Virus record (IMG/VR): IMGVR_UViG_3300030328_004377
Location: 1-22,767 of that record
Source: a virus
Length of the DNA: 22,767 nt
Reading direction: 5' to 3' (one strand)
The notes beneath the pieces are model-generated. The model did not search any database, was not told where the DNA came from, and worked only from the letters and a program-made list of their open reading frames with translations. Position numbers and translations under genes: made by a program. Shown here in pieces: positions 1 to 22,704 of the stretch (position 1 is its first letter; the number at the start of each line of letters is the position of its first letter).

Positions 1-465
1 CTATCTGCGATGTTATTTTCTTGGGTGAAATCCAAGAAGCCAGACTATACTATGACTACAAATGGCGTACTAGCAGGGCTAGTAGGAATAACAGCGGGAG
101 CAGACGTAGTGAGTATCTGGAGTGCGTGTACAATCGGGGCTATCGCCGGTATAATACTTTGTCTCGCGTCATCTTTTATTGAGAGAGTGATTAAGATAGA
201 TGATCCAGTAGGAGCTATCGCTGTTCATGGGGTATGTGGCGTATGGGGAACCGTTGCCGTAGGCATATTTTCATCAGAACATTCTATACTAATTCAATTA
301 TTAGGAACATTAATAATAAGTGCATTTTCTTTCTTGTTTTCTTTATTAACATTTGGTATTATTAAAAAGACATTAGGAGTAAGAATAAATGGTCAATTAG
401 AAGCTAAAGGTCTAGATCTTTTAGAGCATGGTCATACTGCTTATCCAGACTTTCAAGTGAGTTGA
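1..465 (+). CDS. amt: Amt/MEP/Rh-family ammonium transporter, C-terminal part (5' end outside the window)
   Basis: The reading frame is open from base 1, so the gene is cut by the window edge and only the C-terminal ~154 residues are present. Family signatures are clear. NGVLAGLVGITAG matches the Amt pore-helix signature, and DDPVGAIAVHGVCGVWG carries the second histidine of the pore twin-His pair. The tail ending in EHGHTAYPDF resembles the usual Amt C-terminus. Several hydrophobic helices are visible. The family conducts ammonium or ammonia across the inner membrane. The gene is followed by a strong hairpin terminator, so it ends its own transcript. In this phage context it is probably an auxiliary gene that supports nitrogen uptake during infection (inference). 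Whether the N-terminal half is intact cannot be seen. Confidence 0.93.
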   Translation, partial: LSAMLFSWVKSKKPDYTMTTNGVLAGLVGITAGADVVSIWSACTIGAIAGIILCLASSFIERVIKIDDPVGAIAVHGVCGVWGTVAVGIFSSEHSILIQLLGTLIISAFSFLFSLLTFGIIKKTLGVRINGQLEAKGLDLLEHGHTAYPDFQVS

Positions 466-490
466 TAATAAAATTCATATAATTGTCAAG

Positions 491-513
491 CCACCCTTCG
501 GGGTGGTTTTTTT
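491..513 (+). terminator. Rho-independent terminator after amt
   Basis: A six-base-pair GC-rich stem, CCACCC with GGGTGG, is closed by a TTCG tetraloop and followed by seven T residues. It starts 25 bases after the amt stop codon. It separates amt from the phosphate-transporter gene. Confidence 0.93.
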
Positions 514-550
514 GTTACAGAGTTGTTACTTGATCTATAGGCAAGTTTAC

Positions 551-565
551 TGTATAATATAAATA
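551..565 (+). promoter_or_regulatory. Candidate promoter (TGTATAATATAAATA) abutting the pit start codon
   Basis: The stretch contains a TATAAT box at 553-558 and a TATAAATA octamer at 558-565, one base before the ATG at 567. If TATAAT acts as a -10 element, the transcript would start at or very near the ATG and be nearly leaderless. The stretch lies just after a terminator, where a promoter is expected. Related motifs occur before other genes in the window. Confidence 0.5.
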
Positions 566-566
566 G

Positions 567-1520
567 ATGAACATAGAATCTTTATATGTGATTGTCGGTT
601 TTTTATTAGCTTCTTATTCTGTTATTGCAAATGACTCAGTCCAAACATTAGGAACATGGATAGCTTCTAACTCTAAAAAAATTAAATGGTATTATATGTG
701 GTGCGCGGCAAGCTCTGTTCTACTATTTACTATATGGTATGGATGGATAGTGAATAATGGGGATATATCTTACGGCAGGTTAGAAAAAATACCTTATCAA
801 ACTGTTCAATGGTATCATGCTTTGGCTCCTATGATATTAGTAGCTCTCACTAGATTTGGAGTTCCAGTAAGCACAACATTTTTAGTTTTATCAGCTTTTG
901 CCAGCACACTCGTATTGGAAAAAGTTTTAATCAAGTCTGCTATGGGGTATGTAGTCGCTGCAACGGCTGCTTATGTAATCTGGCTTGCAGTGTCTAAATA
1001 TTGGGAAAACCAAAAAGATGTGGCTCCAGAGAGAGAAACTGCTTGGCGTTGTGCTCAATGGCTAACAACAGGCTGGCTTTGGTTTACATGGCTATCTCAT
1101 GACATGGCAAATATAGCAGTCTTTTTACCTAGGGAGATACCAATAGAAACAATGGCTTTGGTTAGCTTGGTCTTTGTAGGAGGCTTAGGATATATGTTTT
1201 TCGAAAAGGGAGGTAGGATACAGAAAATAGTCCTCTCTAAAGCTAATGTTAATTATGTAAGATCTGCGACTATCGTCGATTTAGTATACAGTATCATACT
1301 TTGGTATTTTAAAGGCTACAACAACATTCCTATGAGTACGACTTGGGTATTTGTTGGTTTACTGGCTGGAAGAGAGTTGGCTTTCGTAACGACTAACTCA
1401 TTAGGCGACTCACATAACATGAAGATAGTCTTTCCTATGTTGTTAAAAGATTTTCTAAAAATGATGGTTGGCCTTGCTATCTCTGTGGCTATGGTATTAG
1501 CTATCCACTACATATTCTAA
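567..1520 (+). CDS. pit: PiT-like inorganic phosphate transporter
   Basis: This 317-residue integral membrane protein has two inverted signature repeats typical of PiT/PHO4 transporters. The first half has AND-SVQTLGT (residues 21-30) and GVPVSTT (98-104). The second half has SHDMANIAVFLP (177-188) and PMSTT (255-259). These correspond to the family's G-ANDVANA and PVSTTH motifs. PiT proteins import phosphate with a cation across the inner membrane. At 317 residues it is shorter than typical cellular PiT proteins (about 400-500), with a short central loop. The final His of PVSTTH is replaced by F in the first repeat and by W in the second. No Shine-Dalgarno sequence is seen, and a promoter-like TATA box abuts the start. 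With amt upstream it suggests phage-boosted P and N uptake (inference). Confidence 0.8.
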   Translation: MNIESLYVIVGFLLASYSVIANDSVQTLGTWIASNSKKIKWYYMWCAASSVLLFTIWYGWIVNNGDISYGRLEKIPYQTVQWYHALAPMILVALTRFGVPVSTTFLVLSAFASTLVLEKVLIKSAMGYVVAATAAYVIWLAVSKYWENQKDVAPERETAWRCAQWLTTGWLWFTWLSHDMANIAVFLPREIPIETMALVSLVFVGGLGYMFFEKGGRIQKIVLSKANVNYVRSATIVDLVYSIILWYFKGYNNIPMSTTWVFVGLLAGRELAFVTTNSLGDSHNMKIVFPMLLKDFLKMMVGLAISVAMVLAIHYIF

Positions 1521-1593
1521 ATATACTGTTTAATGGCCCGTAAATGCCCCCTGAGGACGTTTTTACTAAAATAACCTATCTTCCTATACCTTT

Positions 1594-1604
1594 GTGTAAA
1601 TATA
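1594..1604 (+). promoter_or_regulatory. Recurring GTGTA motif (GTGTAAATATA)
   Basis: The motif ends 4 bases before the ATG at 1609. It belongs to the set of GTGTA plus A/T motifs found just upstream of gene starts on both strands. A promoter role is inferred from position and recurrence only. Confidence 0.35.
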
Positions 1605-1608
1605 GGGT

Positions 1609-1929
1609 ATGGGGAGAATTATATTTTACGAAGGGATAGTAGAGCCGCCAACAGAGACTTTGGCTATAAGAGGGTTGTGTTTATACTTAAATATTTTCGG
1701 AAAAGACTCTGAAATATTATTAGAAACTCGTAAAAAACATAGAGATCTATATTTTCAATGGATAAAGCAGACAGGTCTAAGCGATTTCGTAGAAGAGATA
1801 GTTTATCCTGAGTATAAAGTAATGGGTTTTAGGATAGCAGCCCAAAAGGTCAGATCTCCTTATATGAAAGTCGATAGGATATCTTTTGATAACCTAAACG
1901 ATATACTTTCCAAGTTAAAAAGTGTATAA
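1609..1929 (+). CDS. Hypothetical protein, 106 residues
   Basis: I do not recognise this protein. It has no signal peptide or membrane helix. It is mixed alpha/beta by appearance, with a basic helical middle (residues around 40-60: ETRKKHRDLYFQWIKQ) and a C-terminal helix NLNDILSKLKSV. It lies between the phosphate-transporter and ferredoxin genes. Its last codons overlap the promoter-like motif of the ferredoxin gene. There is no Shine-Dalgarno sequence before the ATG. The close packing suggests it belongs to the same accessory cassette, but no function can be assigned. Confidence 0.75.
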   Translation: MGRIIFYEGIVEPPTETLAIRGLCLYLNIFGKDSEILLETRKKHRDLYFQWIKQTGLSDFVEEIVYPEYKVMGFRIAAQKVRSPYMKVDRISFDNLNDILSKLKSV

Positions 1930-1933
1930 TATT
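1922..1933 (+). promoter_or_regulatory. Recurring GTGTA motif (GTGTATAATATT) before the ferredoxin gene
   Basis: The motif contains a perfect TATAAT and lies over the stop codon of the preceding gene, 3 bases before the chosen ATG at 1937. A -10 element here would give a transcript with almost no leader. Confidence 0.45.
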
Positions 1934-1936
1934 AAA

Positions 1937-2164
1937 ATGGCAGAAATATCAGATAGATATGAAGATAATGTAGCTGGTAGGTATTTTGTTGACGAGCAAT
2001 GTATAGACTGTGATCTGTGCAGAGAAGAAGCTCCTAAAAATTTTACCAGAAACGAAGCAGAGGGTTACTCTTACGTTTATAAACAACCAGAGGGTGAAGA
2101 AGAAGGAGATTGCAAGACAGCCATGGAAAACTGTCCTGTAGAAGCGATCGGTGATTTTGGGTAA
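1937..2164 (+). CDS. Small 4Fe-4S ferredoxin
   Basis: This 75-residue acidic protein has the cluster ligands C22-x2-C25-x2-C28 (QCIDCDLCRE) and C66-P (ENCPVEAIG), which fits a single [4Fe-4S] cluster. An extra Cys59 is present, but a second full motif is not. The pattern CIDCDLCR...NFTRN...SYVYKQP is one I associate with short ferredoxins of Verrucomicrobiota and related phyla (recalled, not searched). The start is set at MAEISDR. An in-frame GTG 15 bases upstream lies inside the promoter-like motif and is less likely. It would act as a cytoplasmic electron carrier. Its partner is unknown. It ends 1 base before the HxxSHH gene, so the two are probably co-expressed. Confidence 0.88.
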   Translation: MAEISDRYEDNVAGRYFVDEQCIDCDLCREEAPKNFTRNEAEGYSYVYKQPEGEEEGDCKTAMENCPVEAIGDFG

Positions 2165-2165
2165 A

Positions 2166-3410
2166 ATGAATAGAAGAAAATTCATAGGTTCCTTAGGTCT
2201 TTCTATGGCATTGCCGGGGTTAGAGTGTTTTGGTAATGTTAAAAAGGATGTGAAAAGGTTTGCGGCTGTATACGTACCTAACGGTATCAATATGCATCAC
2301 TGGACTCCTAAGAACTATGGTAGCTTAATTGACTTACCGAATATAATTTCTCCGATGGAAAGTTACAGAGACAGCTTACAGATAGTCTCTGGATTGACTC
2401 ATGATAAAGCTAGGCCAAATGGAGATGGAGCTGGAGATCACGCTAGAGCTTGTTCAACATTTCTTACAGGCAAGCAAGCCAATAAGCACGAGTCACAAAT
2501 ACGTTCAGGTAAATCTGTCGATCAATACTTAGCAGACAAATATAATGGTATTACAAGATTTGATAGTCTTCAATTTACTGGTTCTAAAGCTAGAATAATT
2601 GGTAAGTGTGATTCTGGTTATAGTTGTGCGTATCAATATAATTTATCTTGGAAATCTGCTTCTCAACCTATGGCATCTATGTATGACCCTAAAGATATTT
2701 TTAATAGGTTGTTTAATGTTGAGAAAATAGAACAGAAACAGAAATTATATAAAAAGTCTATTCTTGATTTTGTTTTAGAAGAGAGTCGTGCATTATCTAA
2801 TAATATTCCAGCAAGTGATAAAGCTAAGTTAGATGAGTATATGTATTCAGTAAGAGAAGTAGAACTAGAATTAGAAAGAAGAGATAAATTTAATTTAAAT
2901 AATAATTTTGAGTTTGATTTCGATATAGAGAAAAAATCTGATAAGTTTAGATTAATTTATAGCTTAATGCACTTAGCCTTCCTAACTGACACATCAAGAG
3001 TAATAACTTTTTTAACAGCGCACGATGGATACAACGGACACCATAGAGAGATAGGTATTAGCGAAGGCCATCACAGCTTATCACATCATCAGAAAGATCC
3101 TCATAAGTTAGCTGCGCTTGCTAAGATTAATTTGTTCCACGTGAAACTATTCTCTGAGTTTATAGGTAAGTTAGAAAAAGATGACCTCTTAGAAAACACT
3201 GATGTCTTATATGGGGCAGGTATATCTGACGGTAATAGACACAACCACGACGAACTTCCATGTATGTTAGTAGGAGGTAGCAACAAAGGTAATCATTTTC
3301 GAGTAAAAAAAGAAAAACCCATGTGCGACCTTTTTGTAAGCTTGCTGAATAAACACGGAATTGATATGAAGCATTTCGGAGACTCAGAAAGCGAATTAAA
3401 TATACTTTAG
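2166..3410 (+). CDS. Tat-exported HxxSHH-family protein (DUF1552)
   Basis: This 414-residue protein starts with a twin-arginine signal (MNRRKFIGSLGLSMALPGLE), so it is probably exported folded to the periplasm. Residues 303-308 are HSLSHH, the motif that names the HXXSHH/DUF1552 family. Downstream, LYGAGISDGNRHNHDELP (about residues 350-367) matches the family's conserved C-terminal block. The family is common in Planctomycetota, Verrucomicrobiota and Myxococcota and has no established activity. It resembles the DUF1501/alkaline-phosphatase-like proteins in motif style, so a hydrolase role is possible but unproven. The start at 2166 is preferred over 2151 because it places the RR motif at the N-terminus and is 1 base after the ferredoxin stop. 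Length is about normal for the family. Such a gene is unexpected in a phage. Confidence 0.85.
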   Translation: MNRRKFIGSLGLSMALPGLECFGNVKKDVKRFAAVYVPNGINMHHWTPKNYGSLIDLPNIISPMESYRDSLQIVSGLTHDKARPNGDGAGDHARACSTFLTGKQANKHESQIRSGKSVDQYLADKYNGITRFDSLQFTGSKARIIGKCDSGYSCAYQYNLSWKSASQPMASMYDPKDIFNRLFNVEKIEQKQKLYKKSILDFVLEESRALSNNIPASDKAKLDEYMYSVREVELELERRDKFNLNNNFEFDFDIEKKSDKFRLIYSLMHLAFLTDTSRVITFLTAHDGYNGHHREIGISEGHHSLSHHQKDPHKLAALAKINLFHVKLFSEFIGKLEKDDLLENTDVLYGAGISDGNRHNHDELPCMLVGGSNKGNHFRVKKEKPMCDLFVSLLNKHGIDMKHFGDSESELNIL

Positions 3411-6778: not shown

Positions 6779-7225
6779 CTATTTATCTATTTTTGTGTCG
6801 TCTTTTAATTTAGTTATGATCTCAGAAATATTCTCATTAATTTGTCGTTTTTTCTCTTGTTCTTCATAACCCTGTTCTCCCGCTTTATATAAATACGGGT
6901 AAGATCCGTTTTTGGGAAGTTGTTTTTCAATTACAAGTAATTTTAATCTGTCATTTGGAACCAACATCTTAGTTCCACGATCTGACATGTAAAAAATTGT
7001 CTTAAGAAGCCCAACCCGAACTATACGTGCTTGTCTACCAGAGATATAAAGTATATCGTCATTTTTAAAGTCAGATCCAAGCCATATTAAAAAACCCTCA
7101 GCAGCTTTATGGACGGCATCTTTAAAGAGAATTGCTGCAAAAGCAAAAAAGAAAATCCATCCGTATTGGCCCAATAGTTGCTCTATCGCAGCTTGAGCCT
7201 CGGGGGCTATTAATTGTTGATTCAT
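6779..7225 (-). CDS. Minimal MscS-like membrane protein (paralogue A)
   Basis: In this 148-residue protein a hydrophobic helix (about residues 20-38, GQYGWIFFFAFAAILFKDAV) is followed by a small beta domain (NDDILYISGRQARIVRVGLL). A charged helical C-terminus of about 45 residues follows. The stretch from the helix through the beta domain resembles the pore helix (TM3) and beta domain of MscS channels, where the pattern is GD-V-I-G--G-V--I---ST---PN. It is a paralogue of the divergently transcribed gene at 7282, with shared segments GW, FK, DD-Y, GR and RIVRVG. TM1, TM2 and the large C-terminal vestibule of MscS are absent. It could be a small ring-forming membrane protein. Confidence 0.6.
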   Translation of the reverse strand: MNQQLIAPEAQAAIEQLLGQYGWIFFFAFAAILFKDAVHKAAEGFLIWLGSDFKNDDILYISGRQARIVRVGLLKTIFYMSDRGTKMLVPNDRLKLLVIEKQLPKNGSYPYLYKAGEQGYEEQEKKRQINENISEIITKLKDDTKIDK

Positions 7226-7247: not shown

Positions 7248-7265
7248 AGAATATTAGATTAAAAT

Positions 7266-7277
7266 GTGTAATATATA
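7266..7277 (+). promoter_or_regulatory. Recurring GTGTA motif (GTGTAATATATA)
   Basis: The motif ends 4 bases before the ATG at 7282. It is one of the best copies, and its presence makes the upstream in-frame ATG at 7264 an unlikely start. Confidence 0.4.
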
Positions 7278-7281
7278 CCAT

Positions 7282-7599
7282 ATGGAAGATCAAATCGCTA
7301 GTGCCGGTCAAAATTTTATCGGCGAACACGGTTGGTTGTTGCTCGCAGGAGCAGCAGGTATCATTTTCAAAGAGACCATTACTAGTTTTGCAGCGGCAGT
7401 ATCCATGTCTCTCTTTGGCGGTATAAAATCAGATGACGTTTATGTCATGGGTGGAAGAGTCTGTAGAATAGTCAGAGTAGGAATGAGAAGTACTACTTTT
7501 TACTTCAACGACACTAAAACTAAAGTAGATATCGCTAACGAAGATATTAAAGGTTTGAGATTAGAAAAGAAAATCAAACCTATGGATGAAGAAGCTTAA
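7282..7599 (+). CDS. Minimal MscS-like membrane protein (paralogue B)
   Basis: This 105-residue protein has an N-terminal helix GWLLLAGAAGIIFKETITSF (about residues 17-36). SMSLFGGIKSDDVYVMGG and RIVRVGMRSTTFYFND follow. The run matches MscS TM3 and beta domain closely in layout: a Gly/Ala-rich pore helix, a turn before DD-V-V-GG, I-RVG-RST, then an IANEDI segment in place of the usual IPN. The channel's TM1/TM2 sensor helices and C-terminal cage are missing. It is a paralogue of the gene at 6779-7225 on the other strand. The start at MEDQ is preferred over the ATG at 7264, which overlaps the promoter-like motif. Possible roles include a small oligomeric pore or a decoy subunit for host channels (speculative). 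Confidence 0.62.
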   Translation: MEDQIASAGQNFIGEHGWLLLAGAAGIIFKETITSFAAAVSMSLFGGIKSDDVYVMGGRVCRIVRVGMRSTTFYFNDTKTKVDIANEDIKGLRLEKKIKPMDEEA

Positions 7600-9294: not shown

Positions 9295-9987
9295 ATGCCA
9301 AGAAAAAAGGCTGCAGAAATAAAATTTGAGGATTGTATAGATGTTATTGACCAAGAGATTTCTAAAAGAAGGAATAAATGGACTCTGACCTCTATCGCTT
9401 GGATGGATTTTGACGATATATCTCAAATTCTAAAAATACACATCTATAAAAAATGGCATCTTTACGATGTCACTAAACCTTTAGCTCCTTGGCTAAATAG
9501 GATAATCTCCAACCAGCTTAAAAACTTAATTAGGAATAACTATAGCAATTATTGTAAACCTTGTTTGAAGTGTGCCGCTGCAGAGCCAGATTCTGCATGT
9601 TCAATATACGGAAATCAAGATGATAGATGCCCTCTTTACAAGTCTTGGATGCAGAAGAAGAAATCTGCGTACGACGTCAAAATGGCGTTACCTCTAGAAA
9701 AGCATAAAGAGCAAGTAAACGAAGTTGAAGTTTCTCCAGCTGACATAGAGCTAGGCATAGTTAAGTTGAACAGAAAATTAAAAGAAATACTAAAACCTAA
9801 CGAGTGGATTGTTTATGAAGGTTTTTATATGTATAACAAAACAGAGCAAGAGATAGCCGAAACTTTAAATTTTAAAACTACTGAAAAGAATAGAACACCG
9901 GGCTACAAACAGATAAAGAATATACAAAAATCTATTATAACTAAAGCTAAGAAGATTTTAGATAGAAACGATTTAGATTGGATATGA
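9295..9987 (+). CDS. Divergent sigma-70-family RNA polymerase sigma factor
   Basis: This 230-residue protein has a region-2-like part: MDFDDISQILKIHIYKKW then PLAPWLNRIISNQLKNLIRN (about residues 37-81). The C-terminal region-4-like HTH reads YNKTEQEIAETLNFK (about 180-194) and is followed by a basic helix. Between them is an unusual cysteine-rich insertion, C87-x2-C90-x2-C93 with C102 and C112, that may bind zinc. Two-domain sigma factors of this size redirect host RNA polymerase to phage promoters. It is a candidate reader of the GTGTA motif (inference). Its stop overlaps the oxygenase start (ATGA). No Shine-Dalgarno sequence is seen. The assignment rests on pattern, not on a search. Confidence 0.68.
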   Translation: MPRKKAAEIKFEDCIDVIDQEISKRRNKWTLTSIAWMDFDDISQILKIHIYKKWHLYDVTKPLAPWLNRIISNQLKNLIRNNYSNYCKPCLKCAAAEPDSACSIYGNQDDRCPLYKSWMQKKKSAYDVKMALPLEKHKEQVNEVEVSPADIELGIVKLNRKLKEILKPNEWIVYEGFYMYNKTEQEIAETLNFKTTEKNRTPGYKQIKNIQKSIITKAKKILDRNDLDWI

Positions 9988-12025: not shown

Positions 12026-12953
12026 TACTGAGTTTGTCTGCAAAGTAGACGGAGAAAAATTTGAGACAGAAAAGCAACTACACATGCATTTGCGCAAACA
12101 TAAAATGCGCATGGCTGAGTATTACCAAAAATTTTACCCACGAAGGGATTTACTTACAGGAGATTTAATTAAATTTAAAAACAAAGCTCATTACTTTGCT
12201 AATTATTTTAATTCCAGACCTAATATGAAAAAGTATCTTGAGTCTGCTCCTGAAGGAGAAGCTAGGGACTTTTGTACTCAAGTTATTAAAGACAGAATAG
12301 AAAGGAGGAGTATTAAATATTCCCCTACTCAAGTAGAGATGAGGTCTTCAATGATGCCTCCAATATTCTACTATCAAAAACTTTTTGGTAACTATTATAA
12401 TCTTTGCGAAGAGTTAGGCCTTTTAGCTAGATTCAAAAATACACCTAAAAGTAAAATAAATGAGAGCATAGAAGAGGGCTTTGAAATTGTCGTAGATACA
12501 AGAGAACAAAAGCCTTTGAATATAAACTATGGCACAAGAAGAGAAGGTTTAAAATTTGCTGACTACTGGCTTGACAAAGAAGATAATAAATGCTATGTAG
12601 AAAGAAAAGAGACAAAAGATTTTATAGGTACGTTTACTGGAGGCTGCGAAAGGTTTTCTAGAGAATTAGAAAGAGCCAAAGAGAAAGACTCTTATGTGGT
12701 AGTTGTGGTAGAAAATTCTCTTGACAACATGATGAAGTTTAATTATTTAAAATACGTTACAAAGAAAATTCAAGTTACTCCAGAGTTTGTTATGAGGAAC
12801 GTTAGAGATATTATACAAAAGCATGACAACGTTCAATTTTTATTTGCAAAAGGCAGAACTGAAGCTACTAGGCTGACTAGAAAACTTTTTTTCTGTGGTG
12901 AAAACTACAAGAACGTAGATCTTCAGCTAGCTTATGATATGGATTTATTGTAA
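12018..12953 (+). CDS. ERCC4-type nuclease with N-terminal zinc-finger-like segment
   Basis: In this 311-residue protein, residues 8-28 (CKVDGEKFETEKQLHMHLRKH) look like a degenerate C2H2/MucR-type finger, with the second Cys missing. They are followed by AEYYQKF, a motif often next to such fingers. The C-terminal half is an ERCC4 nuclease: VVDTREQKPL (158-167), then FADYWL with Asp182, then YVERKETKD (193-201). This is the ERK-x3-D active-site signature. Such nucleases cut branched or flap DNA. In the position just before the large terminase it may process replication intermediates for packaging (inference). The stop codon overlaps the terminase start (TAATG). A strong AGGAGG precedes the start. 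Confidence 0.8.
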   Translation: MDNTEFVCKVDGEKFETEKQLHMHLRKHKMRMAEYYQKFYPRRDLLTGDLIKFKNKAHYFANYFNSRPNMKKYLESAPEGEARDFCTQVIKDRIERRSIKYSPTQVEMRSSMMPPIFYYQKLFGNYYNLCEELGLLARFKNTPKSKINESIEEGFEIVVDTREQKPLNINYGTRREGLKFADYWLDKEDNKCYVERKETKDFIGTFTGGCERFSRELERAKEKDSYVVVVVENSLDNMMKFNYLKYVTKKIQVTPEFVMRNVRDIIQKHDNVQFLFAKGRTEATRLTRKLFFCGENYKNVDLQLAYDMDLL

Positions 12954-14806
12954 TGTGGTCAACTCCAGAAAAATACGAAAGAGAAGTAGAAGATGTCAAT
13001 GCTGAACTAGCAAAGATTGAAGGCTTTCTGGATGAGAAACAAGCTCGTAGCTCTTTAGCGAAATTCCTAAGAAACAATTTATACTTCACGACTTTTTTAT
13101 TGACAGGGATAAAACTCGCGCCCTTTCAAGAAATTACTTTAAGGGGAATGTTCAATAGGAACTTTAGTATGTGCGTATGGGGTCGTGGTTGCGGTAAATC
13201 TTTTATAGCCTCTATTTACTGTTTCTTGCAATGTATATTTGAACCCAATACGAAGATACTTATAGCTGGCCCAACTTTTCGTACAGCTAGATTTATATTT
13301 AACAATATAGAAAAGATAGTTGAGACAAGAGAAGCTATGCTACTTGCCCAAGCCTTTGGAGCAAAAACAAAAAGAAACGATCAATACGAATGGAAAATTA
13401 ATGGTGGGACTATAACAGCTATCCCTCTTAGTGGTGAAAAGATTCGTGGTTTCCGCGCTAACATACTTGTGCTTGATGAGTATTTACTACTACCCGAAGA
13501 CATAATCAAAAACGTTTTAATGCCCTTCCTTGTGGCTCCTCAGGACATGAAGAGAAGAATGGAAGTAAAAGAGTTAGAAGATAAGCTAGTCAAAGAAGGG
13601 GTCATCAAAGAAGAAGAGAGAACTAAGTTCGAAAATAAATCTAAGATGATAGCTCTTTCGTCAGCGAGTTATACTTTCGAAAATCTTTATAAAACTTACC
13701 AAGAGTGGATTAATAAAATACAATCAGAAGACGAAGAATCTGACGCAAAGTATTTTGTATCTCAAATGGGATACGAGGCCTTACCAGAGGAGATGATAGA
13801 TAGAACTATTATCGAAGAAGCTCAAGAAGGAGGGTCTTCTCACTTCTCGTTTCAGCGAGAATATTGTGCTCAGTTTACAGATGGTAGTGATAGCTATTTT
13901 AGCGCAAAGAAGATGGAGTTGTGCACCCTAAAAGGCGAAGAAGAACCTAGTACCTTAATGGTTGGAAGAGGAGGAAAACGTTACGTGCTGGGTATTGACC
14001 CCAACATGAGCGATAGCCCTACGGCCGATTACTTTGCTATGTCTGTTATGGAGATAGACGACGATACGGGCCAAGGGACTCTTGTTCATACTTACGCTGG
14101 CCTTGGGAGTTTAAATAAACATGTAAAATATTTAGCTTATTTACTTCAAGCTTTTAATATTGTTTTTATATGTCTTGATAATGCTGGCTCTGATACATTT
14201 TTAGATAGTTGTAATGAGTCTCAATTCTTTAAAGACATTCGCGTTAATTTAAAAACTATACCTTTAAGTTCTGATGCAGATGGAGTAGAATATCAGAAAT
14301 CATTAAGACAAGCTAAACAAAAATATAATTTAGAAAATAATCAAATTTGTTTTAATCAAGTATTTACTAGTAACTTTATACGAAGAGCTAATGAATATTT
14401 ACAGGCTTGTATAGATTATAAAAAGATTTGGTTTGCTTCAAGAACAGCTTCGAATGAAACATTTTTTAATAGGACTAGTTCTATAAGACTACCTAACCCT
14501 AAAAAGCTCATCTTTATTGACGATAGAAAAGAATGGTCTATGCTTGACTTTATTGAGCATCAAGACGATATGGTTTATCAAACTAAAAAGCAATGTAGCT
14601 TAGTAGAACATAAGTCTACTGCTAGGGGATCACAGAACTTTGACCTACCTCAACACCTCAAAAGATCCACTTCTCCCAATAAAGCAAGAAAAGATAATTA
14701 TTCTTCATTAATGTTGGCGAATTGGGGACTTAAGCTCTATAACGACTTAAATAAGGCCGAAACTAACACTAATAAGGAAACTTTCGAGCCTATTATGCTT
14801 TTTTAA
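12953..14806 (+). CDS. terL: Terminase large subunit (DNA-packaging ATPase and nuclease)
   Basis: The 617-residue protein has a full terminase layout. Walker A is WGRGCGKS (residues 76-83) and Walker B is ILVLDEY (171-177). A coupling motif is ALSSASYTF (about 234-242). The RNase H-like nuclease domain shows acidic residues in LGIDPN (346-351), ICLDNAG (406-412) and HQDDM (536-540). The enzyme powers DNA translocation into the prohead and cuts concatemers. The Walker A has GRGCGKS, a common terminase variant. The start ATG overlaps the nuclease stop. The product is normal length for a T4-like or related terminase. Confidence 0.96.
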   Translation: MWSTPEKYEREVEDVNAELAKIEGFLDEKQARSSLAKFLRNNLYFTTFLLTGIKLAPFQEITLRGMFNRNFSMCVWGRGCGKSFIASIYCFLQCIFEPNTKILIAGPTFRTARFIFNNIEKIVETREAMLLAQAFGAKTKRNDQYEWKINGGTITAIPLSGEKIRGFRANILVLDEYLLLPEDIIKNVLMPFLVAPQDMKRRMEVKELEDKLVKEGVIKEEERTKFENKSKMIALSSASYTFENLYKTYQEWINKIQSEDEESDAKYFVSQMGYEALPEEMIDRTIIEEAQEGGSSHFSFQREYCAQFTDGSDSYFSAKKMELCTLKGEEEPSTLMVGRGGKRYVLGIDPNMSDSPTADYFAMSVMEIDDDTGQGTLVHTYAGLGSLNKHVKYLAYLLQAFNIVFICLDNAGSDTFLDSCNESQFFKDIRVNLKTIPLSSDADGVEYQKSLRQAKQKYNLENNQICFNQVFTSNFIRRANEYLQACIDYKKIWFASRTASNETFFNRTSSIRLPNPKKLIFIDDRKEWSMLDFIEHQDDMVYQTKKQCSLVEHKSTARGSQNFDLPQHLKRSTSPNKARKDNYSSLMLANWGLKLYNDLNKAETNTNKETFEPIMLF

Positions 14807-14832: not shown

Positions 14833-15960
14833 ATGCCAAGTAAAATAACATCTGGACAATTAGACGAAACCAGCCTTACAGAGCTTCTATTGAAGAAACT
14901 CTCTGGTTCTGACACAGTATCTTCTGGATTCTATACTATCACAAACCCTTCGGGGTATGTACCTTTAGCTGGAGGATCGGAATCAATGACTGGCTATAGC
15001 GGTGATATAACATCTAGAACTACAGAGCTTATATCTAACGTTTCTGGAGCTTTAAACTCTAGTGGGACTCTTCTTTTCGATAAAGCTGTTGATGTCTCAG
15101 GACATGCTGAGGCTTTCGCTACTGGAATAAGCGGGGTGCTTTCTAATAGAGTAAATGATGTTTCAAGCGATTTTTCAACTGTTAGTGGCGACTTCTTAAA
15201 GTCAGGAAGTTTTTTCCATACTATTAGTGGAGACTTTTCGACTTCGGCAGCTACTGGCGCTTTGGCTTATTCCTCTGGTGATGCTAGGGGCTTATATGTA
15301 GTCACAGGAAGCTCATCAACAAAAGAAGGCTGGGCAAAAGTAACTGAGTATCCTGAAATGACAGGGTACGTTAGTGCAGCTAGTGGAGATATAAGGACTA
15401 GTTTGGAAGCGACAGGAACCAACTTATCTAACTTGGTTTCTAATATCAACGCAAGTAGTTCAACAAACTTTACAGCAAAGAAGACTTTTTCGGCAGGCCT
15501 GAATACAGAGCTTGTGAATTTTGGAAATGATGGAGTTACTCTTAGAGTGAATTCAAATAACTCTGTTACTTTCGATGATGTAAGCGGAGCCTTACTGACA
15601 GTAGCTCCCGGTTATGGTGCAGATGCTCCTGTGTTTTCTGTCACAGATAAAGCAGGGCTACCTTTAGTAGATGTCTTTGATGACGATAGAATAAATCTTG
15701 GGCCTTACGGAACTAACCCATTAAATGTTAGTGGGGAAAAAGTTTGCTTAGGTAATTATAGATCTTACTTTAGTGGGTCAAATGTTCATCTAAGTGGCAA
15801 TGTAACTATAAATGATTTAATTACAGTTAGTGGTTTATCTGGAGGTTATGCAATATTTAATAATCTTCCAGAATGGCCACAAATAGGCGGTCTAAATAGT
15901 GGGACTCTTTTTAGAAGCGGCAATCATGGAGTAGGTCCTAGCGTATTATGCGTTGTTTAA
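14833..15960 (+). CDS. Fibre-like virion protein with SG-rich repeats
   Basis: The 375-residue protein begins MPSKITSGQLDETSL, a start seen in phage fibre-type proteins. It then carries degenerate repeats built on (V/I)SG(D/A/V): NVSGAL, DVSGHA, GISGVL, TVSGDF, TISGDF, ASGDI. The rest is beta-rich and Gly/Ser/Thr/Asn-rich, with no catalytic motif. The composition fits a trimeric beta-structured appendage or head fibre. It lies between the large terminase and the portal, an unusual place for a tail fibre, so it may be a head or neck appendage (inference). The C-terminal part (from about 330) may be the tip. No homologue is identified. Confidence 0.62.
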   Translation: MPSKITSGQLDETSLTELLLKKLSGSDTVSSGFYTITNPSGYVPLAGGSESMTGYSGDITSRTTELISNVSGALNSSGTLLFDKAVDVSGHAEAFATGISGVLSNRVNDVSSDFSTVSGDFLKSGSFFHTISGDFSTSAATGALAYSSGDARGLYVVTGSSSTKEGWAKVTEYPEMTGYVSAASGDIRTSLEATGTNLSNLVSNINASSSTNFTAKKTFSAGLNTELVNFGNDGVTLRVNSNNSVTFDDVSGALLTVAPGYGADAPVFSVTDKAGLPLVDVFDDDRINLGPYGTNPLNVSGEKVCLGNYRSYFSGSNVHLSGNVTINDLITVSGLSGGYAIFNNLPEWPQIGGLNSGTLFRSGNHGVGPSVLCVV

Positions 15961-17878: not shown

Positions 17879-19036
17879 ATGAGCGAAAATAAAGAAAATA
17901 TTCAAGACGTAAATCAGTACTTTGGTGCTGCAGAGATAGACGTTATGGTTCCGGACATTCCATTGCCTCCAGAACCAGAAGAGAAAAAGGAAGTTAAAGA
18001 CGAGGTCGAAGGAGCCTTTAAGTTTGCTTTCATCGGTGCTGGGCAAGGTGGCTCCAGAATTGCAGAAAGCTTTCATAAATTAGGCTACAGAAAAGTAGGC
18101 ATCGTCAATACTGCCCAACAAGATTTAAATTCTATTAATGTAGAGAACAAGCTGTGTATTGGAGCAGGTGGCGCTGGTAAAGACAGAAGCGTTGCTGCTA
18201 AATGCTTTGATGAGAAGCGCGATGATGTTCTTGACTTTATGCGTCGTTCTTTTGGGGAGGATGTGGACAGAATCTTTGTTTGTGCTGGAGCCGGAGGAGG
18301 ATCTGGTGCAGGTACGCTAGTTCCTTTAGTAAAGACTGCTAAAGAGTTACAGGAAACAATTAAATCTGGATCTAAGAAGGTTGGGGTTATTCTAGCCTTA
18401 CCTAAATATTCAGAAGGTAGAAAAGTAAATGCTAACGCTTACAATACTTTAAAAGAGGCATGTGATTTGGTCAATGAGGGAGTAGTTTCTCCTCTTGTCA
18501 TCATCGATAATGAAAAAACAAGTAAGTTATATTCTAATGTATCTGTCTCTAATTTCTGGCAGACTGCTAATATGAGTACAGCAGGGGTTTTCCACTTGTT
18601 TAACATGACAGCTTCTAAGGATAGCTCTTATTCTTCTTTTGACTCTAGTGACTATAAGAACGTGCTAGATTCTGGAATTACTATCTTTGGCGCAACACCA
18701 GTTCCTAAATGGGACGATCCTGTAAGTATTTCTAGGGCTGTTAGAAGCATAGCTCAAAGTGGCAGCATGTCTGGTGGTATAGATGTATCTACAGCTAATT
18801 CAGCTGGTGCTATTCTTATTGGGGGTAAAGAGGTGTTGGATAACATTCCTCAGTCTAGCCTTGATGAAGCTTTTGATCAATTAACTAGAATTCTTAGATC
18901 TGGAAGTGTAGTACATAGAGGCATTTACAGTGGAGATAAAAATAATCTTACAGTATTTACGATTATTGGTGGTATAGCTACCCCTCAAGAGAAGCTAGAG
19001 GAGCTAATGAAGTTAGGAGATTTAGAAGAAAAATAA
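17879..19036 (+). CDS. FtsZ/tubulin-family GTPase
   Basis: The 385-residue protein has an acidic, Pro-rich N-terminal extension (residues 1-46) and then an FtsZ-like GTPase domain. FIGAGQGGSR (51-60) is the T1 loop. GIVNT-AQQDL (74-83) corresponds to the FtsZ VNTDAQAL segment. AGAGGGSGAG (136-145) is the tubulin signature (FtsZ AGMGGGTGTG). A T7-like SFDSSDYKNVL (253-263) keeps both acidic residues D255 and D258 that complete GTP hydrolysis between subunits. A C-terminal beta domain follows. It therefore probably polymerises with GTP. It sits 3 bases after the portal gene, inside the late head operon. Phage tubulins known to me (PhuZ, TubZ) are more divergent from FtsZ. No FtsZ C-terminal partner-binding peptide is seen. 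Confidence 0.88.
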   Translation: MSENKENIQDVNQYFGAAEIDVMVPDIPLPPEPEEKKEVKDEVEGAFKFAFIGAGQGGSRIAESFHKLGYRKVGIVNTAQQDLNSINVENKLCIGAGGAGKDRSVAAKCFDEKRDDVLDFMRRSFGEDVDRIFVCAGAGGGSGAGTLVPLVKTAKELQETIKSGSKKVGVILALPKYSEGRKVNANAYNTLKEACDLVNEGVVSPLVIIDNEKTSKLYSNVSVSNFWQTANMSTAGVFHLFNMTASKDSSYSSFDSSDYKNVLDSGITIFGATPVPKWDDPVSISRAVRSIAQSGSMSGGIDVSTANSAGAILIGGKEVLDNIPQSSLDEAFDQLTRILRSGSVVHRGIYSGDKNNLTVFTIIGGIATPQEKLEELMKLGDLEEK

Positions 19037-19093: not shown

Positions 19094-19696
19094 ATGGCAA
19101 ACTCAGATACAAGTTTTATTTTAAGTACGAAAGCCGCAGGCGGTAGCCCTTTGACCAACCTGACTAGCGGTGCTGGCGCGGGCAAAATTAAGTACGTTGA
19201 AGGCGGAGCAATTAAATCCGTTTCAACTTTAGCAAAAGGAGCAATCTCAGGAATTGTTATACCTTTGCATGGAGCAACTATTACAAGCTTTCCAGACAGT
19301 GATGGAGCATCTCTATCTCACAGTCCAACAAACATCATAGGTGACCCTGCTGTAGGTGACTACTCTTTGACTTCTGGAGACTTCGTTTCCACTGCTGGTG
19401 CAGAAGTTAACGGAGGAGCTCAGAAATTCGTTAATGCTATCCTCGATGCAGCTTATAGGGGCTACACTTCAGGAGTAGATCAATCTAGTGGAATTAATAG
19501 TATGACCGTTACGAGAGGTGATCTTAGTTTATCTAACACATCTATCACAGACGGGACAGGAATTGTAAACACTTATACAAGGTCTTATACAGTAAACTTC
19601 AAGTATTATCAGTCTGGTGTTATCCAGAATGGTGACAATGATACTGCTGCCAGACCTGATATTGCAAACGATGGATCAGATGGTGTACCATTCTAA
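19094..19696 (+). CDS. Abundant-looking virion structural protein, 200 residues
   Basis: This is a soluble, Gly/Ser/Thr-rich, beta-rich protein (GAISGIVIPLHGATITSF, DLSLSNTSITDGTG) with no Cys and no catalytic motif. It has a strong Shine-Dalgarno sequence upstream and a strong terminator directly downstream, which suggests high expression. Near-modular placement with other virion genes suggests a head, neck or tail-tube component. No family is recognised. The N-terminal MANSDTSFILSTKAAGGSP resembles starts of small phage structural proteins. Confidence 0.68.
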   Translation: MANSDTSFILSTKAAGGSPLTNLTSGAGAGKIKYVEGGAIKSVSTLAKGAISGIVIPLHGATITSFPDSDGASLSHSPTNIIGDPAVGDYSLTSGDFVSTAGAEVNGGAQKFVNAILDAAYRGYTSGVDQSSGINSMTVTRGDLSLSNTSITDGTGIVNTYTRSYTVNFKYYQSGVIQNGDNDTAARPDIANDGSDGVPF

Positions 19697-19726
19697 GAAC
19701 TAAAGTTTGTATTTCCCTATTTAAAG

Positions 19727-19753
19727 CCCCTCATTTATTTGAGGGGTTTTTTT
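19727..19753 (+). terminator. Rho-independent terminator after a virion gene
   Basis: A seven-base-pair stem, CCCCTCA with TGAGGGG, has a TTTATT loop and is followed by a run of seven T, then more T. Flanking AAAG extends pairing with the T tract. It isolates the 200-residue virion gene from the downstream head genes. Confidence 0.94.
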
Positions 19754-19781
19754 ATTTTTTTTATAAGTTTTTTAAAAATAA

Positions 19782-19794
19782 GTGTATAAACTAT
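19782..19794 (+). promoter_or_regulatory. Recurring GTGTA motif (GTGTATAAACTAT)
   Basis: The motif lies 29 bases after the terminator and 11 bases before the ATG at 19806, where a new promoter is needed. It contains TATAAACT. This makes the in-frame GTG at 19782 an unlikely start. Confidence 0.45.
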
Positions 19795-19805
19795 CAGGTA
19801 ACTTA

Positions 19806-20258
19806 ATGCAATCTAATAATAAAATGATGTCGCTTGATATAGAATTTTCTTACGGTAAAAAATTTGCTCCTATTTCAGGACAGAAAGATGCAGCATTAGA
19901 GTTCTCTTCCAAAGTGGTTGAGTTGCTAACAAGCAAAGCTAATCAACATAATTACATAAACGAAGAGCAAGTTACTTCTGAAAAATTAAAACAAGTATTT
20001 GTAGATAGTTTTTCTGAGTCTCTACAGTCTGTTAAAGCGCTAGCTAGCGTAAATACATTCTTAATTACCTGTTCTGCTGGCTACGTGGACGACACGGAGC
20101 ATTTTGAGCCTTCTATGGAGGAAATCAAAGAAGCAGAGAGAGAAGTAAAAAGACATGGATTGGGAAGCTATGATTTTAGAGATGTAGATGATTTATACTT
20201 TCAAAGTGACGAACAGGCCAAAGCGGAAGCAAGGGACTGGATAAATAGTGTAATATAA
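19806..20258 (+). CDS. Hypothetical protein, 150 residues
   Basis: I do not recognise this protein. It is soluble and mixed: a beta-rich N-terminus (MMSLDIEFSYGKKFAPISG), a helical middle and an acidic C-terminal half with EEIKEAEREVKRHGL and DVDDLYF. The start at 19806 is preferred to the GTG at 19782, which sits in the promoter-like motif. It lies directly after a terminator and before small virion genes. It could be a neck, head-completion or assembly protein (position only). Confidence 0.6.
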   Translation: MQSNNKMMSLDIEFSYGKKFAPISGQKDAALEFSSKVVELLTSKANQHNYINEEQVTSEKLKQVFVDSFSESLQSVKALASVNTFLITCSAGYVDDTEHFEPSMEEIKEAEREVKRHGLGSYDFRDVDDLYFQSDEQAKAEARDWINSVI

Positions 20259-20259
20259 A
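20248..20259 (+). promoter_or_regulatory. Recurring GTGTA motif (GTGTAATATAAA) followed by AAGGA ribosome site
   Basis: The motif overlaps the end of the preceding gene. An AAGGA site at 20262-20266 follows, 9 bases before the ATG at 20276. In this copy the leader would be long enough to carry a ribosome site. Confidence 0.4.
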
Positions 20260-20275
20260 ACAAGGATAATTTAAA

Positions 20276-20569
20276 ATGTCAAGAGCAACTAATTCACAAC
20301 AGACCCAAGGAGTACCTTCTGTATCAAGAACGGCCAATAAGGGTGGAGCAGGAGCTGTGGTTGCAGCAAGCTCAGGAGATACTATCATAATCACGGATAT
20401 AATGGCCTCAGCCGCCACCACACTAAGCACTTCAGCGGCAGGTGCAGATACTATCATAGCTTACGCCCCTGCTGGAACAACAAATTTAAATCAAGGCATT
20501 TCAGTGCCAACTAGTTCCGGCGTCTACAGTAGTGCCGGTAACGTCACAATGAACTATTATATAATCTGA
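20276..20569 (+). CDS. Small virion-like protein, 97 residues
   Basis: This is an Ala/Ser/Thr/Gly-rich, beta-rich small protein (SVSRTANKGGAGAVVAAS, DTIIITDIMASAATTLS) ending MNYYII. It has no charged catalytic motif and low Lys/Glu content, which fits a virion component such as a decoration or fibre-associated protein. It has an AAGGA ribosome site. Its stop overlaps the start of the prohead protease gene (TGATG), so the two are translationally coupled. No family is recognised. Confidence 0.6.
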   Translation: MSRATNSQQTQGVPSVSRTANKGGAGAVVAASSGDTIIITDIMASAATTLSTSAAGADTIIAYAPAGTTNLNQGISVPTSSGVYSSAGNVTMNYYII

Positions 20570-22041
20570 TGAAATATACTACCATTTTCAGCTCAAACGT
20601 AAAGCCTGTTGTATCAGAAGAAAAAGACAAATATTTAGCTTTGGCTTCTGCTATTGAGGTTGCTCAATTTATTCCAGAGGTTGACGAGAAGCAAGTAGAC
20701 CTATTACCAATAGCTTTTAATGCATTTGTTGCTAATAGAGTTAATAAAAATGGCGATGTAGTTGATACAGATTGTGCCATGGCTTTTCATAAAGATTTCA
20801 AAAACAAACCAATTAATATCGAACATAATAGAGATAGAGTGATTGGTACTATTTTAACTGCTGGTTTCTCTGAATTTGGCACTGATAAGCCTTTAACGGA
20901 AGAAGAAGTAAAAGATATAAAAGGTCCTTTTAATGTTACTCTAGGTGGCGTTATATGGAAAGTGGTTAACCAAAGAATCGCAGACCTAATAGAGGAGTCA
21001 GCAGACCCAAGTAGCGAAGACTATATGAAGATTAGTGCTAGTTGGGAATTAGGTTTTAAAGATTATAATTTGGTCCTTTTAGAAGGAAATGACAAGAACA
21101 TAGAGAATGGACTCATTGTTGACAACGAAGAGGACATAGCTTCTATGGAAAAAGACTTAAAAGCCCTAGGGGGAGAAGGTAAAACTAAAGATGGCATGTC
21201 AGTATACAGGAAGGTAGTGGGCGAAGTTGTTCCTTTAGGAATAGGCCTCACTGAGACACCTGCTGCAGACGTAAAAGGCGTGTCAACTATGATGAATTCT
21301 GAAGAGACTCCGGAAGAGACTCAAGAAGAAGAAAACACTTTTGCTGAAGCGAATACTTCACAAAACACAGAAAAAAATGTAATAATCCAAAACGAGGAGA
21401 AAACTATTATGAAAATAGAAAGTATTAAAGACATCACTAACGATTCTTTGAAGGAGCTTTCTGCCTCGGCTGTTTCAGATTTTATTGAATCAGAACTCAA
21501 GGAAGCTTCCGAGAGATTCACAGCCGAAAAAGCTCAGGTGGAAGCCAATCTCAAAGAAGCTCAAGAGAAGATTGAGTCTATTAACGTAGACTACGATAAA
21601 ATGCAAGCAGAACTTAGTTCTGTTTCAGAAAAACTAACCAGTCTTGAAGCTGAAAAAGCGGAGAAAGAAGCTGAAGAATTGTTCTCACAGAGAATGGCCT
21701 CTTTGGATGAAAAGTACGCTCTGGAAGCAGAAGACCGTGAAGTTTTAGCTGGACAGGTTAAAGACTTAGATGCTGAAGGCTGGGACGCTTTCGCTAAAAA
21801 CATCGACGTTCTGTTGAGAGACAAGTCAAGAGAAGTCTTGGCTAAAAAGGAAGACGAAGCTTCGAAAGAAGTGGAAGTTGAAGAAGAATCAAAAGCTTCT
21901 GAAGAAGTTGTAGATGAAGCCATCGAAAGAGGCGAGCAAGAAGAGAGCGCTATTCCAGCCTCAACTCAAGCTTCCGAAGGCTCTGCTTACGACAAGTACA
22001 GAAAAGCTTTTGAAATCGATCAATTTGATATTAATTACTAA
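20569..22041 (+). CDS. Prohead protease fused to scaffold-like domain
   Basis: The 490-residue protein has two parts. Residues 1-240 fit a prohead serine protease of the herpesvirus-assemblin/T4 gp21 type. His86 lies in INIEHNRDRVIG, and Ser156 or Ser158 in MKISASWELGF, the catalytic-Ser strand. This enzyme cleaves scaffold and capsid proteins during head maturation. Residues about 281-440 form a long charged coiled coil (KAQVEANLKEAQEKIESINV) typical of scaffold. An acidic linker with EETPEETQEEEN joins them. An in-frame ATG at 21409 with a strong AGGAG could yield the scaffold alone. The C-terminus (DKYRKAFEIDQFDINY) may bind capsid. Confidence 0.82.
   Translation: MKYTTIFSSNVKPVVSEEKDKYLALASAIEVAQFIPEVDEKQVDLLPIAFNAFVANRVNKNGDVVDTDCAMAFHKDFKNKPINIEHNRDRVIGTILTAGFSEFGTDKPLTEEEVKDIKGPFNVTLGGVIWKVVNQRIADLIEESADPSSEDYMKISASWELGFKDYNLVLLEGNDKNIENGLIVDNEEDIASMEKDLKALGGEGKTKDGMSVYRKVVGEVVPLGIGLTETPAADVKGVSTMMNSEETPEETQEEENTFAEANTSQNTEKNVIIQNEEKTIMKIESIKDITNDSLKELSASAVSDFIESELKEASERFTAEKAQVEANLKEAQEKIESINVDYDKMQAELSSVSEKLTSLEAEKAEKEAEELFSQRMASLDEKYALEAEDREVLAGQVKDLDAEGWDAFAKNIDVLLRDKSREVLAKKEDEASKEVEVEEESKASEEVVDEAIERGEQEESAIPASTQASEGSAYDKYRKAFEIDQFDINY
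21395..21399 (+). promoter_or_regulatory. Internal ribosome-binding site (AGGAG) for nested scaffold
   Basis: AGGAG with a preceding G lies 9 bases before the in-frame ATG at 21409, inside the protease gene at the protease-scaffold junction. Few starts in this window have so good a site. Confidence 0.6.
21409..22041 (+). CDS. Probable nested scaffold protein (internal start in the prohead protease gene)
   Basis: In-frame translation from ATG 21409 gives 210 residues starting MKIESIKDITNDSLKEL. The product is almost wholly helical coiled coil plus an acidic tail and a C-terminal segment. The start matches the junction where the acidic linker ends and the coiled coil begins. Lambda C/Nu3 is the known precedent for a scaffold made from an internal start within a protease gene. 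The evidence is the ribosome site and the domain boundary. Production of the short form is inferred. Confidence 0.6.
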   Translation: MKIESIKDITNDSLKELSASAVSDFIESELKEASERFTAEKAQVEANLKEAQEKIESINVDYDKMQAELSSVSEKLTSLEAEKAEKEAEELFSQRMASLDEKYALEAEDREVLAGQVKDLDAEGWDAFAKNIDVLLRDKSREVLAKKEDEASKEVEVEEESKASEEVVDEAIERGEQEESAIPASTQASEGSAYDKYRKAFEIDQFDINY

Positions 22042-22062
22042 TATACAAGGAAATAAAATATT

Positions 22063-22704
22063 ATGGCAACGTTTGTTAAAAACACACAACGGCTAAAGCC
22101 TTTTAGGCAGCACGCCGAAACAGATGTCGTAAATCTTTTCAGCCTTAAAGATGATGACGGAGATGTAGTAGCTTCGCATAGTGCCCTCGCAACTGATGGT
22201 GCTAAGCTAAACAAGGGGTTACTCGTTTCTGTTAAAGCTGGCTGGAAGAATACCGACGATCCTGTAAACAAAACTGGTATCGGCAACGCTGGTAGTAGTT
22301 ATACGAACACGGTATCATTCCGTTATGGCGCAGCTGCAACAGTTGAGCCTTGTGCATCTGGTACTCAACCTCTTGGCCTAACCCTATGGGACGTCGCTGA
22401 AGTCGACGAAAATGGCGAGAAGTTGATCTACAACCCGCGCAAGGCAGCTGAAATGCAGGCTGTGGTTAGTGGTCAGGCAGTCCCTGTCTTGACCAAGGGT
22501 ATTGTTCTTTACAGCGGAAACTTGACCAGCGGTGGCGCTGACTCAGTTGGCGCTGGAGTCCCAATCTACGCTGATGCGCTCCGAAATGGTGATATCAGTG
22601 CTTCTGCTACTGAAAGTACAGGAAGTGCTGCTCAAACCAAGATCGGAACAACTCTAGGCGCGGTTGACGAAGACGGTTTCATTCTGTTGAAGATCGACAT
22701 CTAA
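22063..22704 (+). CDS. Putative head decoration/stabilisation protein
   Basis: The 213-residue protein has an AAGGA ribosome site 11 bases upstream. It contains Gly/Ala/Thr/Val-rich beta segments (SFRYGAAATVEPCASGTQPL, VLTKGIVLYSGNLTSGG) and no catalytic motif. Its place between the protease/scaffold and the next, probably major capsid, gene is where phages encode head decoration or stabilisation proteins. Codon choice (more AAC, ATC, GGC, CGT and fewer A/T-ending codons) differs from the rest of the window. This suggests selection for high expression. The family is not recognised by name. Confidence 0.68.
   Translation: MATFVKNTQRLKPFRQHAETDVVNLFSLKDDDGDVVASHSALATDGAKLNKGLLVSVKAGWKNTDDPVNKTGIGNAGSSYTNTVSFRYGAAATVEPCASGTQPLGLTLWDVAEVDENGEKLIYNPRKAAEMQAVVSGQAVPVLTKGIVLYSGNLTSGGADSVGAGVPIYADALRNGDISASATESTGSAAQTKIGTTLGAVDEDGFILLKIDI

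Follow-up and report, generated by a model that had tools for sequence, protein, structure and literature searches.

A TubZ-like tubulin GTPase beside the putative portal gene of an uncultured phage and its placements among relatives

In our analysis of the window (the whole 22,767-nucleotide stretch of viral DNA studied here), sequence profiles and a structural model confirmed that one ORF encodes a genuine tubulin/FtsZ-superfamily GTPase of 385 residues with a complete fold. Judged from profile comparisons, its nearest known kin is the plasmid protein TubZ, and not bacterial FtsZ or PhuZ. The gene is under very strong purifying selection, and its relocation happens inside one virus family. 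Our preferred reading, to which we give a probability of roughly one half, is that the protein is a TubZ-type phage tubulin whose filament would organise the infected cell and which would carry an N-terminal docking arm.

Identity, fold and selection

An earlier note on this DNA, made from the sequence alone, had described an FtsZ/tubulin-like GTPase of 385 residues encoded 3 bases after the upstream gene. Both the length and the position were borne out by our ORF check, the ATG lying 3 bases past the stop codon of the putative portal gene (Table 1). The superfamily assignment also held, with Pfam matches to Tubulin (PF00091; E 8.9e-11, 42.8 bits against a curated cut-off of 33) and Tubulin_2 (E 5.9e-7, above the curated cut-off), and with PDB sequence matches to TubZ/RepX (1.2e-14) and CetZ (1.2e-10). 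The structure prediction that the note had proposed gave the tubulin GTPase fold with both tubulin domains in an AF2 model built from an alignment of 33 homologues (pLDDT 81, pTM 0.82). Foldseek matched this model to TubZ-Bt at 1.5e-23, and VIA-align gave Z scores of 35.6 for CetZ2 (4b45), 35.3 for TubZ and ∼30 for FtsZ; 4xcq, the TubZ structure of phage c-st, was among the structures listed by the search. Among viral structures the nearest is A0A6J5RW92 (26% identity), which comes from an uncultured phage of the Caudovirales and is already annotated “FtsZ Cell division GTPase”; among cultured phages, only gp138 of Bacillus phage G matched (24% identity).

Table 1. Features of the tubulin gene and its neighbours, in window coordinates.
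Feature	Position	Strand	Basis
Terminase large subunit (TerL)	12953..14806	+	PF03237 8e-9, phrog_2 1.5e-25
Uncharacterised 375-aa protein between TerL and portal	14833..15960	+	In close relatives; no family match
Putative portal protein gene, 630 aa	15983..17875	+	Position after TerL; weak PHROG portal match in a relative
TubZ-like tubulin/FtsZ-superfamily GTPase, 385 aa	17879..19036	+	PF00091, AF2 model, Foldseek/VIA-align, 163 homologous loci
N-terminal conserved motif PDIPLP (residues 25-30)	17951..17968	+	95/100 unique relatives
T1 nucleotide loop GAGQGG (53-58)	18035..18052	+	G.GQ[GA]G in 100/100 unique proteins
T3 loop GGAGKD (97-102)	18167..18184	+	GA[GS]K in 100/100
T4 tubulin signature loop AGAGGGSGAG (136-145)	18284..18313	+	100/100
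T7 synergy loop FDSSD, D255 + D258 (254-258)	18638..18652	+	FD..[DE] in 100/100
Downstream genes (19094, 19782, 20276, 20569, 22063), assumed head-assembly candidates	19094..22704	+	Order conserved in close relatives

Every motif previously named was found, namely FIGAGQGG (residues 51-58), AGAGGGSGAG, D255 and D258, and all six GTPase signatures that we tested occur in all 100 unique relatives. The core glycines, D255 and D258 are invariant across the 33 aligned homologues (63-98% identity), and the two acidic residues are invariant in a diverse homologue set too. In FtsZ and TubZ, the acidic residues of the T7 loop complete the active site only upon polymerisation, and since both are kept here, we infer GTP-driven polymerisation. 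The same two residues count against a tubulin-fold GTPase that makes no cytomotive filaments, such as a regulator or a membrane scaffold, which we consider improbable even though some Tubulin_2 proteins are not known as filament formers. The dN/dS ratio of the gene was 0.009-0.055 in five of the six computable pairs, the sixth (0.22) being a comparison of nearly identical sequences with few changes. With one PF00091 match per record, the tubulin is the single detectable copy in the long contigs.

To place the protein within the superfamily, a diverse tubulin alignment was compared by hhalign with single sequences of TubZ, FtsZ and PhuZ; profile comparisons were used because the PhuZ and E. coli FtsZ branches reached the length limit in our tree, which made their placement unreliable. 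The match to plasmid TubZ was full length (8e-25 across 324 columns), that to E. coli FtsZ was confined to the GTPase domain (2e-12), and that to PhuZ was partial (2.5e-6, 137 columns). The FtsZ equivalog model TIGR00065 scored 56.5 bits, below its cut-off of 295.2. The PHROG PhuZ match had an E value of 0.063, and neither this nor the partial hhalign match points to a close relationship with PhuZ. The Pfam family TubZ-like_C (PF22453) was not listed for the window protein, and its matches in two relatives (0.00035 and 0.00097) fell below threshold. As a name for the protein, the “FtsZ” label used previously is less apt, the full-length likeness being to TubZ.

Genomic placement and relocation

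The portal assignment of the upstream ORF is putative and derives from its position next to TerL and from one weak PHROG “portal protein” match (E 0.0014) of its homologue in a relative; in the window itself no direct profile match was obtained, including in a PDB profile search, and the AF2 model was poor. The five downstream genes gave no informative matches in Pfam or PHROG. The start of TerL is overlapped by an ERCC4-type nuclease gene (PF02732; 12018-12953), in an order conserved family-wide. Ahead of the terminase region, a gene for a sigma-70-type factor (9295-9987), likewise conserved family-wide, makes a bacterial host likely. At 1-3410, genes for the ammonium transporter Amt (C-terminal part), a PHO4-like phosphate transporter, a ferredoxin and a DUF1552 protein stand one after another. 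One relative (G010) has Amt, PHO4 and DUF1552 in identical order at 90-95% identity, and another (G058) has Amt and DUF1552, for which reason these look like viral accessory genes and not host flank. As clues to the host, the accessory genes gave distant plasmid matches or none. The adjacent divergent genes at 6779-7225 (-) and 7264-7599 (+), whose products share ∼36-38% identity, form an inverted paralogous pair that is conserved in close relatives.

From IMG/VR, one scan returned 207 related stretches and divergent queries returned more, and the analysed set comprised 163 loci with 100 unique proteins; pattern scans of cellular genome contigs found no tubulin relatives. In the window clade the tubulin gene directly follows the portal gene, and its product is conserved about as well as TerL and better than the portal. 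A search of relatives for this arrangement, as the earlier note had advised, found 53 of the 100 unique proteins encoded directly after the portal gene and another 6 encoded between TerL and portal, counts that may be biased because the first scans were seeded with the window clade. A reciprocal search with the portal likewise returned some relatives with the order TerL-tubulin-portal, and many with no tubulin near the portal; in the portal tree, the “TerL-Z-portal” label of L080 is due only to a reversed locus. In one subclade (L044, L082, L084 and others), a gene of ∼430-440 codons with no family match lies between portal and tubulin. Elsewhere, the tubulin gene has DnaB on one side and a RecA-like gene, in some cases followed by a homing-endonuclease-like gene, on the other; further positions are next to DUF1552 in an accessory (metabolic) region, ahead of a glycosyltransferase gene, and close to a sugar epimerase gene. 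Including the portal-downstream position, there are at least six genomic placements; they cluster on the tubulin tree, and most are single clades.

The adjacency noted previously holds in the window and in most close relatives and fails in three records of the family. In G065 (170 kb), TerL and portal lie side by side at 132-136 kb (portal at 134.1 kb), and the only detectable tubulin is at 70.1 kb in a DnaB module; in G066 (144 kb), the portal is at 115.0 kb and the tubulin at 15.7 kb, again in the DnaB module and 99 kb apart, the distances in these two contigs thus spanning 62-99 kb. In G058, the tubulin is in the accessory region at 44.8 kb, ∼15 kb from the portal (59.6 kb) and on the opposite strand. 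The TerL proteins of G065 and G066 are 63-64% identical to that of the window, as are those of G001 and G062, two relatives that carry the tubulin at the portal or close to it. In the DnaB placement, a homing-endonuclease-like gene adjoins the tubulin gene (L272:9147-9563 and homologues; phrog_9084, 3e-5), and G001 has such a gene at the same spot with no tubulin there; this gene might bear on how the tubulin gene moves. In most DnaB-type phages, the tubulin gene is immediately preceded by a gene for an acidic protein of ∼90 residues with no family match (L272:9579-9857 and homologues).

In a sister clade that has the family portal, no tubulin was detected on four possibly incomplete contigs (132, 134, 118 and 97 kb); controls were positive as expected. 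In all, 26 portal loci had no adjacent tubulin, and as some of these cluster with G065 and G066, where tubulin is in the DnaB module, we claim absence only for the long-contig sister clade. Five long tubulin-bearing contigs have 13 gene families in common, three of which (tubulin, GP88 (PF17338) and a family of 112-aa proteins) are missing from all three tubulin-lacking contigs compared; since the tubulin-lacking set is one clade, this association is confounded by descent. The G+C content of tubulin-lacking relatives (G084, G085 and G086; L350-L369) is ∼30% against 39-44% in tubulin-bearing long contigs, which suggests a different host group. The existence of a portal-bearing sister clade with no tubulin is indicative that the function is dispensable or host-dependent.

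These placements bear on the proposal, drawn previously from portal adjacency, that the protein is a factor for the head or for packaging which, as filament or GTPase, works directly with portal, proheads or terminase. Such a role would fit the 53 proteins encoded directly after the portal and the 6 encoded between TerL and portal, and it would fit an adjacency that arises on either side of the portal; with the portal side the commonest location, albeit in scans first seeded with the window clade, a head-linked role retains some probability. However, the gene does not stay with portal or terminase in all relatives that have it, as G065, G066 and G058 demonstrate, and the sister clade has the portal with no tubulin. 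The portal side, as one of at least six placements, does not define function, and relocation disfavours a head-only role, which we regard as unlikely.

The N-terminal arm and the possible role of the filament

The N-terminal extension of ∼46 residues was described previously as acidic and Pro-rich; this is indeed what the sequence contains, and residues 1-36 are disordered in the AF2 model. Within it, and not remarked on previously, the pattern PD[IL][PL].P occurs in 95 of the 100 proteins, always 27-31 residues ahead of the T1 loop; it mostly reads PDIPLP or PDIPMP, and in a few cases a position is changed to E, N or M. The tail upstream of the motif is of low complexity and varies in length from 9 to 147 residues; in shuffled tails, the core pattern appeared in 0.17% of cases. 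The motif is present in all six main genomic placements, and the proteins that have no such motif are among the most distant relatives. Its fixed distance from the T1 loop suggests an arm that may reach a defined site, whether on the adjoining subunit, on a protofilament alongside or on some partner.

The motif has the core DIP in common with the C-terminal peptide of E. coli FtsZ, DYLDIPAFLRKQAD, in which the loosely similar stretch is LDIPAFL. Conceivably, and in line with the interference with host FtsZ that the earlier note had offered as a second possibility, the protein could be a manipulator of host division that co-assembles with or poisons host FtsZ, or whose arm captures FtsZ-binding proteins, and a role in trans would suit the loose gene location. 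The likeness, however, amounts to three residues at the opposite end of the protein, which is too short to serve as an argument, and an identity to FtsZ of only ∼20-24% in structural alignment makes co-assembly with host FtsZ unlikely; we hold this explanation to be about as doubtful as a head factor.

The kinship with TubZ raises a further alternative, a partition motor of the TubRZ type for segregating a plasmid-like prophage, which is in keeping with plasmid TubZ as the closest full-length relative and with phage c-st, which partitions by TubZ (PMC7950403). Of five plasmid genes used for comparison, four follow a small gene of ∼95-110 aa that looks TubR-like, but the phage gene has no such neighbour, the 90-aa gene of the DnaB type encoding an acidic protein with no family match. 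Using phmmer, we found no TubR relatives in five long contigs, and no convincing centromere-like repeats were seen near the phage tubulin gene. The absence of TubR and of repeats disfavours a partition role, which we rate as less likely still than a role in the head or in host division.

In our preferred reading, the tubulin would bind GTP and assemble head to tail to give cytomotive filaments, the N-terminal arm would dock on a neighbouring protofilament or on viral or host cargo, and the filament would position maturing virions or viral DNA inside the host during infection, in a PhuZ-like manner with no recognisable phage nucleus. A PhuZ-spindle role with a phage nucleus finds no support, because no chimallin-like protein was detected by phmmer with phiKZ gp54 in five possibly incomplete long contigs, a single-sequence search of weak power.

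Relation to known tubulins

Two subgroups of phage tubulins, PhuZ and the TubZ of c-st, were recognised in a review of 2020 (PMC7950403); two distinct FtsZ/tubulin representatives likewise figure in a later jumbo-phage comparison (PMC7824862), and a study of hot-spring viromes listed tubulin/FtsZ proteins without analysis (PMC8597652). We found no description of the present group in the open-access literature, and an earlier account may exist elsewhere. It is tentatively, and with somewhat less than even odds, that we propose a third class of phage tubulin, found widely among uncultured phages (contigs of ∼120-170 kb, with no recognised nucleus), whose filaments would be tethered by the PDIP arm to virus-specific or host cargo and whose gene would have been kept through repeated moves. 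Were this the case, nucleus-forming jumbo phages and plasmid prophages would not be the only settings of tubulin transport inside the cell, and a third group, common in uncultured phages and under very strong selection, would point to tubulins organising infected cells more widely than in nucleus-forming jumbo phages alone. The pairing of tubulin-bearing with tubulin-lacking sisters, together with a single conserved candidate docking motif, makes the question of filament cargo directly testable.

Among known systems, the PhuZ of nucleus-forming phages is likewise a phage tubulin with the tubulin fold, but similarity to it is weak, the contigs here measure 116-170 kb, and the gene neighbourhood differs from that of phiKZ. 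The earlier statement that the placement is unlike that of known phage tubulins agrees with this, and with gp138 of phage G, which sits amid nucleotide-metabolism genes; gp138 and A0A6J5RW92 are alike in being phage-encoded FtsZ-like proteins, and we found no experimental description of either in the open-access literature searched. Archaeal CetZ has the highest structural Z, but at 24% identity, and it is a cellular shape protein of archaea, whereas the host of the window virus is probably bacterial. Bacterial FtsZ is similar in its GTPase domain and in structure, but the profile match does not extend into its C-terminal domain, and the phage protein ends in MKLGDLEEK, with no FtsA/ZipA-binding peptide, whereas E. 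coli FtsZ has DYLDIPAFLRKQAD. The TubZ proteins of Bacillales plasmids (type III partition; 4ei7, 2xka) come closest in full-length profile homology, in fold (Z ∼35) and in the GTPase loops, the phage gene differing in that no TubR-like neighbour or centromere repeats were found beside it, in its setting in a tailed-phage genome, and in a product with an N-terminal PDIP arm and a short C-terminus.
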